39,000 nt of DNA, taken from NCBI GenBank assembly GCA_945890755.1, contig CAMDDA010000008.1, positions 1-39,000 on the forward strand, in the 5' to 3' direction. The notes beneath the pieces were generated by a model. That model saw only the letters and a list, made by a program, of their open reading frames with translations. It made no database searches and had not been told where the DNA came from. The position numbers were made by a program, and so were the translations under genes. Position 1 is the first letter of the stretch. Every line of letters starts with the position of its first letter. Source of the DNA: Candidatus Kuenenia stuttgartensis. GTDB taxonomy: Bacteria; Planctomycetota; Planctomycetia; Pirellulales; UBA1268. Of this stretch, positions 31,262-35,820 are shown in pieces.

Positions 31262-33418
31262 CTATTTTCGACGCCGGGCCTTGGCCGGCTTCTTCGCCGC
31301 GGGCTTCCGCTTGCGGGTGGGCTTCTCATCCGCTTCGCCCTCCGGCTGCTCGGCGGTCGCCGTGCCCGGCACCGTCTGCGGCACGATGATGCAGTTGTCG
31401 CCGAGCTCGAGGTCTTCCTCCTCCTGGATCGGGCGGCCACGGTCGTCGAGCTTCACGTCGGCCTCGGCCGTCTTCTTCTTCGCGACGGCGAGGAGCTGGT
31501 CGTAGAGCCCATCGCGTTCAGCGCCGTTGATCTGTGAGACCGCCGAGGCCACCTCGCCGAGGTAGCGGAGGAAGATGCTCCGCCGCTGGCCTTCCTGGGC
31601 CACCCGCAGCCGCCGCCGCATGTACATGCCGAGCTTGCGGCCCACTGCCTGGAGCGCGAGCCGGATCTCCTTCTGGATCTCGGGGTAGGAGGCGATCGCC
31701 TCCTTCGACTCGCTTGTGAACGGCACCCAGACGCTCGCCACGTGCACCATCGCCGTGACTGGGCCGCTCGGCAGGCCGCCTCGCGACTGCGAGAGCCCGT
31801 ACGCCCGCCAGTTGGTCGAGGTGATCGTCTGCGTGACGGCACAGGCCGCGGGCTGGAACTGCAGCGGCACTCGGTTGGCGTAGCGGAGCACGTTCATGCC
31901 CTGGCCGTCGTCGGAGCTCACGTGCTGCATCGCGCCGTGCAAGGCGTCGAGTTGCGGCTTCTTGAGCTTGGATGGCGACTGCCGCGGGGCCAGCTGGGCC
32001 TCGGCGAGGATCTTGTCGGCCGCCTCGGCCCCGAGCCCGGTGAACGTGGTGGTGAGAAACTGCCGCAGGCTGCGGGCATCGCTCTCGCCTGCCAGTTCGC
32101 CGAGGGCCTCGCGGCTGACCTTCTGCGCCGCCACGCCACCACCGTAGGCGAGCGCCGCCTCGATCACGAACGGATTGCCGCGGTAGACGGACGGCGGTCG
32201 TGTGGCCGCCGTGAAGAACTCGCCCGGCACGACCTGCCGCAGGCCCGCGAGCAGCCGCTGCTCGCCGATCGGCACCACGCAGTCGGTGGCCGGCGGCGGG
32301 ATCTTGGTCTCTTGAATCGCCTTGAAGAGCGCATCGGCTTCGCCGCGGCCGAGCTTGCCGGTGGTCACCCGCGTGGAGAGCTTGGCCGTGTCGCAGATCT
32401 TCTTGGCCGTGCCGTGCGAGACCCGCGAGAACGACTGCGTCAGAAACTGGGCGAGCGTGAGTCTGGGCTGCTCCTGCAGCATCGTCACCAGTCGGCCGAG
32501 CTCGACGCCATAGGGATGCGGCTTGATCTCCTTCGGCTCCGGCGGCAGGTCCTCGGTGGAGCGTTCGAGGATCCGCTCGGGTCCGTCTGGCCCCTGAAAG
32601 TGAATGCGGGCGTGGGGATTCGAGATCGCCGTCTGCTCGAGGTATTCCTCGACGCTGCCGCGACCCCGCTGAAACTTCGCCTCCATCTCGATCGTCACGC
32701 GGGTGCCGTGCTCGATGGCGTCGCCCTTGTCGTTCTCGGCGACCCACTCGATCGAGTGCTTCTTCATCAGTTCGACGCCGCCCTTGCCGGACGGGATGTC
32801 CACGCCCTCGCCCTTGCCGTTCAAGATCTCCGGCTGGTTGGTCTTCGTGTCGATCCGCAGCTCGGAGTAGTGGGCGGCGTGCTTCGCGTCGATCTTGGAG
32901 ATGATCTTCACCGGCTTGCCAGTGGTGAGCACGCCGTACATGCCCGCCGCCGAGATGCCGATGCCCTGCTGGCCGCGGCTCATTCGCAGGCGGTGAAACT
33001 TCGAGCCGTAGAGGAGCTTGCCGAAGATGAGCGGGATCTGCTTCGCCACGATGCCAGGGCCGTTGTCCTGCACGCTCATGCGATAGCGGGAGCCGCTCTC
33101 GCCCACCGGTTCGATCCGCACCCAGATCTCCGGCAGGATGCCCGCCTCCTCGCAGGCGTCGAGCGAGTTGTCCACCGCCTCCTTCACGCTCGTGAGCAGC
33201 GCCTTCCGTGGCGAGTCGAAGCCGAGTAGGTGGCGGTTCTTGGCGAAGAACTCGCTCACCGAAATGTCGCGCTGCCCCGCGGCCAGCGTCTGGGCGGTGG
33301 CCCGCCGCTTGGCAGGCTGTCTGGCGGCGGACGAGGCCTGGCCGTTCGCAGCCGGTTCAGCGGGCTGAGCAGCTGCGGTTTTTGCGGCTTTGGGTGGGCG
33401 TTGCTTGGTTTTGGCCAT
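31262..33418 (-). CDS. top6B: DNA topoisomerase VI subunit B
   Basis: GHKL motifs 'SVKEAVDNSLDACEEAGILPEI', 'SVQDNGPGIVAKQIPLIFGKLLYGSKFHRLRMSRGQQGIGISAAGMYG'; H2tH; transducer 'PPSVYRGNPFVIEAALAYGG', 'NVLRYANRVPLQFQPAACAVTQTITSTNW', 'VPFTSESKEAIASYPEIQKEIRLALQAVGRKL'. Probable start MAKTKQRPPK at 33418 inside ORF 33673-31262. Confidence 0.93.
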   Translation of the reverse strand: MAKTKQRPPKAAKTAAAQPAEPAANGQASSAARQPAKRRATAQTLAAGQRDISVSEFFAKNRHLLGFDSPRKALLTSVKEAVDNSLDACEEAGILPEIWVRIEPVGESGSRYRMSVQDNGPGIVAKQIPLIFGKLLYGSKFHRLRMSRGQQGIGISAAGMYGVLTTGKPVKIISKIDAKHAAHYSELRIDTKTNQPEILNGKGEGVDIPSGKGGVELMKKHSIEWVAENDKGDAIEHGTRVTIEMEAKFQRGRGSVEEYLEQTAISNPHARIHFQGPDGPERILERSTEDLPPEPKEIKPHPYGVELGRLVTMLQEQPRLTLAQFLTQSFSRVSHGTAKKICDTAKLSTRVTTGKLGRGEADALFKAIQETKIPPPATDCVVPIGEQRLLAGLRQVVPGEFFTAATRPPSVYRGNPFVIEAALAYGGGVAAQKVSREALGELAGESDARSLRQFLTTTFTGLGAEAADKILAEAQLAPRQSPSKLKKPQLDALHGAMQHVSSDDGQGMNVLRYANRVPLQFQPAACAVTQTITSTNWRAYGLSQSRGGLPSGPVTAMVHVASVWVPFTSESKEAIASYPEIQKEIRLALQAVGRKLGMYMRRRLRVAQEGQRRSIFLRYLGEVASAVSQINGAERDGLYDQLLAVAKKKTAEADVKLDDRGRPIQEEEDLELGDNCIIVPQTVPGTATAEQPEGEADEKPTRKRKPAAKKPAKARRRK

Positions 33419-33720
33419 GGTGTGCACGAGGGCTCGGGTCACCAGACTGTGATCGGCTGACACGGCCTTGGCAAGAGGGGCGGACTTTACGGGTTGAGGG
33501 GAATCTTGCGCCCAGACCTGAGGGGTTCTCCGGGATTGTCGTGCGGCGGCCTGGGGGCTGAAACGTGAAGGTGTGCCTGTCGCGTTGAGGCCGCCCAGCC
33601 GGAACGCGGGCAGTGAGCGAACGGGCGTCGCGGAGCCGAATGAAGGCATGTCGGTGGAGGGCACGGATGCCATGCGCCGGTCTGGCTCCGGCGAGCCTGG
33701 GTTCCACAGGGAGGTGGGCG

Positions 33721-34081: not shown

Positions 34082-34702
34082 ATGCGGCAGATGATGAAGG
34101 ACTCGCGTCGGCGGCTGGCTGTCATGGCGGTCGTGGTGACGGTGGGCTGGCTGGTCGGTCGCGGCTGTCTGGCCGGCGGGCCGGCCTATCCGGCAGGCGC
34201 GGGCGGGTACGGTTCTGTGCCCGGATGTGTCGGCCCTGGCTGCGGTCCGCATCACGGACATGCTGGTCAGCACGGCTGCGGGCGGCACTGCGGGCATCAC
34301 GGCTGCGGTCACCATCACGGCTGTGGACACTGCGGCGGTCATGGCTGCGGACATTGCTGTGCCCACGGCTTGTGCGACGGCCACTGGCTCCATCACGACG
34401 TGATCGAGAAGCGGTATTTCCTCCGGAGCCAGGGCAAGAGCTGGCACAGCGCCTGGTACGATCCCGCCGAGGGCCGACCGATCGCACTCGTCGTGCCCCC
34501 CACCGCTGAGTTCCAGACGCAATACGGCTGGGGCGTGCCGAGTTCACGCGTCGCGCCGATCTATCATCAGTTCCGGCGTCCCTATCCGGGGCCCGGGGCC
34601 GTGGCTGGAGGCGGCGGGCGATTCCTGCCCACGCCCAACCAGCCGAGCGACACCGTGCAATTCGGCGTGAACGCCGTCCGCGGTCCCTGGGGCGCGTACT
34701 GA
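34082..34702 (+). CDS. Exported protein with His/Cys/Gly-rich, putatively metal-binding block
   Basis: 206 aa; 'CGPHHGHAGQHGCGRHCGHHGCGHHHGCGHCGGHGCGHCCAHGLCDGHWLHH'; 16 nt after the preceding stop, same strand. Confidence 0.75.
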   Translation: MRQMMKDSRRRLAVMAVVVTVGWLVGRGCLAGGPAYPAGAGGYGSVPGCVGPGCGPHHGHAGQHGCGRHCGHHGCGHHHGCGHCGGHGCGHCCAHGLCDGHWLHHDVIEKRYFLRSQGKSWHSAWYDPAEGRPIALVVPPTAEFQTQYGWGVPSSRVAPIYHQFRRPYPGPGAVAGGGGRFLPTPNQPSDTVQFGVNAVRGPWGAY

Positions 34703-34711
34703 CCGGGCTAC

Positions 34712-35677
34712 CTACGTCTCCAGCCGCTGGCGGGCGAGGTCGGCCCAAGGGCTCTCCGGCGCGAGGGTCAGGAACGTCGCGAGATGATGGCGGGCGTCAC
34801 GGGAGCGGCCCACGTCGTGGAGCACGCCGGCGATGTGCCAGTGGGCATCGGCGTAGTCGGGCTCCTGCCGGAGCACGCCCTCGAGCGCCGCGAGGGCCAG
34901 TTCGTGTTCACCGAGCTCGGCCAACACGCAGCCCAGGCTGGCCCGAGCCCGCAGGTGCTCGGGATCGATCTCGATCGTCGCGTAGTATCGCTCCCGCGCG
35001 GCCGTGAGATCGCCGGCCCGGTAGAGCAGTTCGGCGAGCGTGAACATCACCGCCGCCGACGGCCCCTGGGCCTGGAGCACGGCCCGCAGCGCCTCGGCTG
35101 CCTCGGCGAATTCGCCGGCCGCCTCGAGATCATCGGCGAGGTCGAGGATCTCGGTGGCTTCGGCGGCGGCATCCCGCTCGATACCGGGCTGAGGCGACGT
35201 CGCGGCGACACGGGCGGCTGCCATGTCGATGAGTCGCACGGCGGGCACGGCGTCGATCGGCTCGTCGGCCATGACGAGCGACGATGTGTAGAAGGGCAAT
35301 TGCAGCTGGCCGCCGCCGCTCAGGAGCCGGTCACCACATTTGAGGCTCAGCCGCCGGCCATCGGCCACGATCCGGTCCGTGGCCTGGGCCGCCGCAGGGC
35401 CCCCGCCGGCCACGAGATCGGCCAGTTTGGCGTCGATTTCCCGCAGCGACAGACCGCCCCGAAGCAGGCGGCCGAGGTTCCGGCCCACCACCAGTTGGCT
35501 GAAGTCGAACCACTCGAGCGAGCTTGAGCAACGGACGGGCTCGAGGAGCCGTTCCCGCACCCAGTGCCTGACTGCAGCAGGCGAGACGCCGAGCACCTCC
35601 GCCATCATGGCCGCGGTGTAGAGCCGGCGGACGCCATGCTCAGGCATGATCTGGTCGTCCGTGACCGTCTCGGGCAT
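34712..35677 (-). CDS. MerR-type HTH protein with C-terminal TPR repeats
   Basis: 'RRLYTAAMMAEVLGVSPAAVRHWVRERLLEPVR' MerR-like HTH; 'AAVMFTLAELLYRAGDLTAARERYYATIEIDPEHLRARASLGCVLAELGEHELALAALEGVLRQEPDYADAHWHIAGVLHDVGR' TPRs. ATG at 35677 chosen within ORF opening at 35779. Confidence 0.85.
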   Translation of the reverse strand: MPETVTDDQIMPEHGVRRLYTAAMMAEVLGVSPAAVRHWVRERLLEPVRCSSSLEWFDFSQLVVGRNLGRLLRGGLSLREIDAKLADLVAGGGPAAAQATDRIVADGRRLSLKCGDRLLSGGGQLQLPFYTSSLVMADEPIDAVPAVRLIDMAAARVAATSPQPGIERDAAAEATEILDLADDLEAAGEFAEAAEALRAVLQAQGPSAAVMFTLAELLYRAGDLTAARERYYATIEIDPEHLRARASLGCVLAELGEHELALAALEGVLRQEPDYADAHWHIAGVLHDVGRSRDARHHLATFLTLAPESPWADLARQRLET

Positions 35678-35820
35678 GGGGAAAGTCCTCGCGGCGAGCG
35701 CAGAATCTATCGCAGGCCCGAGGTTACGTCCAACGAGCCGTTGGGTTTCGGGGCTGGGGAAGGGTATTCTCACGACCACAACAGTCGTTCCTTCAGCATC
35801 CGTTCTCTGGAGCCTGCGTC

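Follow-up and report, generated by a model that had tools for sequence, protein, structure and literature searches.

A second H2tH domain inside the transducer of the topoisomerase VI B subunit of Pirellulales

The window, i.e. the whole stretch of 39,000 nucleotides that was analysed, carries the gene for the B subunit of DNA topoisomerase VI (Top6B) on the reverse strand at positions 31262-33418. The open frame encodes 718 amino acids counted from the start MAKTK, and an in-frame ATG at 33673, upstream of this start, would give a Top6B of 803 amino acids. The protein scored 662 bits against NF003218 (DNA topoisomerase VI subunit B; cut-off 274) and 489 bits against TIGR01052 (cut-off 380.7), both of which are matches to the DNA topoisomerase VI B subunit at the equivalog level. 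Three other frames were noted in this region. A 495-amino-acid open frame running antisense through the gene (31742-33229, forward strand) is probably a by-product of the high G+C content. A 206-amino-acid frame at 34082-34702 on the forward strand, for which no Pfam match was found at 1e-5, holds a dense stretch rich in Cys, His and Gly (GCGHHHGCGHCGGHGCGHCCAHG); metal binding would be a guess. At 34712-35779 on the reverse strand one protein combines a MerR-type HTH domain with TPR repeats following it.

The domain layout of Top6B was derived from profile matches, from alignments and from an AlphaFold2 model made on an alignment of 81 sequences. Residues 1 to about 40 are predicted to be disordered. 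The GHKL ATPase domain follows at residues 45-300 approximately (32519-33286; HATPase_c match, alignment to 2q2e and model), and in its N, G1 and G2 boxes E80, N84, D118-N119-G120-P121-G122 and G149-Q-Q-G-I-G are invariant in the 81 sequences. Between the GHKL domain and the transducer, where it is expected in a Top6B, lies the canonical helix-two-turn-helix domain, here called H2tH1 (residues 307-371, 32306-32500), which was placed by alignment to the M. mazei H2tH, by HMM and by the secondary structure of the model. The Pfam match to the transducer comes in two pieces, residues 376-427 (32138-32293; PF09239 positions 1-57) and residues 510-651 (31466-31891; positions 57-156), the second of which includes the long stalk helix at residues 579-631 in the model. 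Positions 1-156 of PF09239 are thus complete but split at position 57 by 81 amino acids, and this transducer is a variant that has gained an insert and lost nothing. Two motifs known from M. mazei were located as well, RGRG at residues 251-254 (32657-32668), equivalent to the KGRR loop by column counts, and WRAY at residues 537-540 (31799-31810), aligned with the WKxY motif.

Alignment with relatives places the insert at residues 429-509 (31892-32134), and within it we find a second H2tH domain, H2tH2, at residues 436-500 (31919-32113). A preliminary description, made from the sequence alone, had aligned residues 321-371 with 450-500 over 51 ungapped residues with 19 identities, and this alignment is exact to the residue. 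The duplicated unit (residues 307-371 and 436-500) is slightly longer than first quoted, because the first helix is duplicated as well. The description had also put the second segment inside the transducer, between strands which are nearly contiguous in archaeal Top6B; the two pieces of the PF09239 match meeting at position 57 confirm the former, and the latter is borne out by M. mazei, in which residue 367 is followed by residue 371 at this point, and likewise by S. shibatae. Its statement that the architecture is changed between the ATPase and the transducer has to be corrected, as the extra domain occupies a hairpin loop within the transducer itself.

For recognition of the domain we built an H2tH HMM from non-Pirellulales planctomycetes and two archaea, without any Pirellulales sequence. 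In a set of 53 diverse Pirellulales proteins this HMM matches every insert, with 31-56 bits (40.5 bits and an iE of 6e-13 for the window's Top6B, P0001), and the top score among 982 shuffled inserts used as a control was 12.6 bits. The similarity is therefore not due to chance. The insert alone also matches positions 242-309 of NF003218, which correspond to the H2tH, at 6e-18 over the whole fragment, and hhalign gives a probability of 98.7% for the set of H2tH2 sequences against the set of H2tH1 sequences. Searching the PDB with a profile of the insert, the S. shibatae Top6B H2tH was ranked first (2e-8), followed by M. mazei (2.5e-4), then uS13 and Fpg.

A helix-two-turn-helix fold is also predicted by structure modelling. 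Residues 431-510 have a pLDDT of 87-97 per ten-residue block, and the helices of H2tH2 (436-445, 451-458, 464-474, 487-499) are offset by a constant +129 from those of H2tH1 (307-316, 322-329, 335-344, 358-370). Folded alone, the insert reaches a pLDDT of 80.6, and Foldseek ranks M. mazei Top6B (9o0g_B; 1.2 A over 68 columns) first among its PDB matches, with uS13 and MutM next. That residues 436-500 are an H2tH domain is supported both by fold and by sequence homology to the Top6B H2tH. An ordinary part of the transducer, or a chance helical stretch unrelated to H2tH, is exceedingly improbable: nothing was found to support it (though 19 of 51 identities would by themselves be modest evidence of homology), the former is ruled out by the absence of the segment from archaeal (M. 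mazei, S. shibatae) and other planctomycete Top6B, and the latter by profile scores far over the shuffled controls together with the independent fold match.

Top6B was found in 180 of 197 sampled Pirellulales genomes, and in none of these 180 does the transducer profile match unbroken over its full length. A few Pirellulales loci show one match or three, and these are either incomplete or located on contig ends. The names met among the relatives of the gene include Pirellulales, Lacipirellula and Thermoguttaceae, which assigns the window to Pirellulales. Of 392 genomes from the rest of the phylum, 191 carry Top6B, and the insert is absent from all those sampled and aligned outside Pirellulales. 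It measures 80-82 amino acids in the Pirellulales loci that were read; at the same loop most other planctomycetes have about 9, and the loop outside Pirellulales is either short or made of unrelated charged sequence. On a tree of the Top6B core, with the H2tH and insert columns removed, presence of the insert is one change on a branch with a support of 100. The insert arose once, at the base of Pirellulales. Among close relatives it has a dN/dS of about 0.17, compared with 0.13 for H2tH1 and 0.07-0.08 for the rest of the protein, and a value of this size means that the insert is under purifying selection.

The transducer loop is an insertion hotspot. Family f51, which lies outside Pirellulales and also has a split transducer match, was considered as an independent gain of the same insert; this was rejected, since the sequence inserted there is charged, of low complexity and shows no H2tH features. 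Unrelated lineage-specific inserts were seen at the same loop in further planctomycete families (L144, L149, L150, L152, L154 and L146-L148, L151, L159-L161), some with a basic stretch of about 33 amino acids (GRIKKK-like), others with long stretches that are acidic or helical. In IMG/VR, a very large contig of 482 kb that is putatively viral (L179) encodes a divergent Top6B lacking the insert, and phage records gave no match.

The preliminary description regarded the second copy as an internal duplication. H2tH2 clearly descends from the H2tH of a Top6B; that its source was H2tH1 of the same protein is plausible but unproven. In trees, the H2tH2 sequences form one group with a long branch to the other H2tH domains, and the remaining topology varies with the archaeal sequences included. 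When S. shibatae is left out, Pirellulales H2tH1 plus H2tH2 are split at 100/100 from M. mazei and the other planctomycetes, which fits internal duplication; with more archaea the same split has 98/95, and in a further sequence set only 68/54. Constraint tests reject neither H2tH1 as one clade (p 0.38) nor H2tH1 plus H2tH2 as one clade (p 0.24). We consider it unlikely, if not remotely so, that H2tH2 instead came, by capture, from a foreign Top6B of the crenarchaeal type. The S. shibatae H2tH resembles H2tH2 (31% identity, with a mean BLOSUM62 sum of 71) more than it resembles H2tH1 (23%, 48) or the H2tH of other planctomycetes (24%, 52), and H2tH1 and the core of the protein are nearer to M. 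mazei. Furthermore, S. shibatae was the top PDB match of the insert profile, joins H2tH2 in every tree that includes it, and has the nearer relative of this genome's Top6A. Against capture, S. shibatae stands alone on a very long branch (3.8), which makes long-branch attraction likely, and the grouping rests on 56-70 columns. The split found without S. shibatae also speaks against it, as do R350/R479 and Q324/Q453, which are shared by H2tH1 and H2tH2 of Pirellulales. A viral-contig scan with S. shibatae as query gave no further archaeal Top6B, and a wider scan gave two loci.

The partner subunit Top6A is encoded in the same genome (PF04406 match at G000:C9:23591-23797). It has 380 amino acids (L003:1252-2394, genome contig C9) and matches 2zbk_A at 9.5e-74, and no compensating change of its length was seen. 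Top6A scores 251 bits with S. shibatae and 149 with M. mazei; for Top6B this is reversed, with 456 bits for M. mazei and 257 for S. shibatae. The two subunits may have different histories. Additionally, GyrA/ParC-type genes were counted as PF00521 matches, with GyrA and ParC pooled. The window's genome has one. Among 28 Pirellulales genomes, one such gene was found in each of the 16 with Top6B and two in each of the 12 without it, and six genomes of the same class without Top6B also have two. From these reciprocal counts topoisomerase VI appears to stand in for topoisomerase IV, and is probably the main decatenase in Pirellulales. The pattern suggests that the two enzymes have been exchanged within one order, even within one family. 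That topoisomerase IV is generally absent from PVC bacteria with topoisomerase VI has already been noted (PMC11302465).

For the role of H2tH2, the M. mazei enzyme gives the points of reference. R263, K268 and K308 of its H2tH touch the arms of the bent G-segment, and mutants of this domain lose G-segment bending and coupling (PMC5922973, PMC13040014). The WKxY motif also touches the G-segment (PMC5922973, PMC13040014), and the KGRR loop lines the T-segment cavity (PMC5922973). By homology, H2tH1 in its usual place would contact the arms of the bent G-segment outside the enzyme. H2tH2, descended from a Top6B H2tH and inserted once in the Pirellulales ancestor into the transducer hairpin, would line the chamber that holds the T-segment; its position in the central cavity rests on published modelling of the Pirellula staleyi Top6B. 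There it may touch the backbone of the T-segment through its conserved GxG hairpin and nearby basic residues, and such a contact could help to keep the transported duplex in place or in orientation for decatenation. For this explanation as a whole, a Top6B with two H2tH domains of which the second contacts the T-segment in the chamber, we see about an even chance.

The residues of H2tH2 bear on this explanation in both directions. Over 53 sequences the GxG hairpin is kept at G461 (98%) and G463 (92%), and candidates for a basic surface are R449 (100%), R452 (98%), K/R469 (95%) and R479 (100%). The equivalents of R263, K268 and K308 are I/A/V/T, G and N. This loss is not decisive, because the only H2tH of S. 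shibatae lacks all three too (V, S and E at these positions). Loss of the KGRR cavity loop as compensation for H2tH2 was not seen; the loop stays basic in Pirellulales as K/R-G-R-G, with R-G-R kept.

H2tH2 could also be a structural or protein-contact module that does not bind DNA and instead stiffens the transducer, narrows the chamber, or touches the opposite Top6B, H2tH1 or Top6A at gate closure. We regard this as a real possibility, held at less than even confidence. The mean net charge of H2tH2 is about 0 vs +6 for H2tH1, all three known DNA-contact positions are lost, and the canonical DNA face has hydrophobic or acidic residues (positions 456, 460 and 465, the last being D or E at the hairpin in 89%). 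In M. mazei, moreover, the two transducers come close to one another across the dyad around G387, which lies 16 residues beyond the site of insertion. A purely structural domain is less easily reconciled with a canonical nucleic-acid hairpin that has been kept even though H2tH1 of the same proteins has R-V-S in its place, or with basic residues at 449, 452, 469, 479, 484 and 486 that are conserved or frequent. We therefore put contact with the T-segment slightly ahead of a purely structural role. As to the suggestion in the preliminary description that the extra domain could alter DNA binding or crossing geometry, we infer such an effect only.

In structural terms, it is poorly understood how the transported segment is recognised by type II topoisomerases and held in them. 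A G-segment-binding domain duplicated into the T-segment chamber is a natural system for a removal test, and it sits in the apparent main decatenase of a large and widespread bacterial order. The apparent substitution of topoisomerase VI for topoisomerase IV in Pirellulales also bears on why some bacteria separate their chromosomes with an archaeal-type enzyme. Tentatively, the main decatenase of Pirellulales may contain four H2tH domains per enzyme: an outer pair bending the G-segment and an inner pair, in the chamber, gripping or orienting the T-segment, the domain for G-segment binding having been re-used to make the latter. If true, this would be a type II topoisomerase with a domain dedicated to the T-segment.

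Among known systems, the M. mazei B subunit (2Q2E, 9O0G, 9O8P) is the best whole-model PDB match (40% identity), with an identical order of GHKL, H2tH1, transducer and stalk and with both the KGRR-like and the WKxY-like motif. Unlike the window's Top6B its transducer hairpin has no insert, and its C-terminal Ig-like domain is absent from bacterial Top6B (PMC11302465). The H2TH domains of Fpg/MutM glycosylases, ribosomal protein uS13 and NFACT share the fold and the GxG hairpin with H2tH2 and appear as weak profile hits and as fold matches, but the scores are far below those to the Top6B H2tH and the host proteins are unrelated. Haloarchaeal Top6B (L172-L174, on plasmids) also has a lineage-specific enlargement in the H2tH/transducer region; here, however, about 200 unrelated amino acids interrupt H2tH1 itself, and the transducer hairpin is short.

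The nearest precedent is the 'unique alpha-helical bundle' that Allen and Maxwell (2024) described in Top6B of Pirellula staleyi and Cladocopium goreaui, and which in their modelling of the P. staleyi protein protrudes into the central cavity (PMC11302465). Like the insert, this bundle occurs in the same bacterial order, is helical, lies in or beside the transducer and is absent elsewhere, and bundle and insert are very likely the same feature. Their paper gives no identification as H2tH, no dating, no distribution within the order and no comparison of residues with H2tH1 (PMC11302465), and in the open-access literature, supplements aside, we found no paper that calls the bundle an H2tH. The feature is thus partly known, as the bundle had already been described without its H2tH identity. 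What is new here is the identity of the second H2tH domain, its conservation and its single origin.
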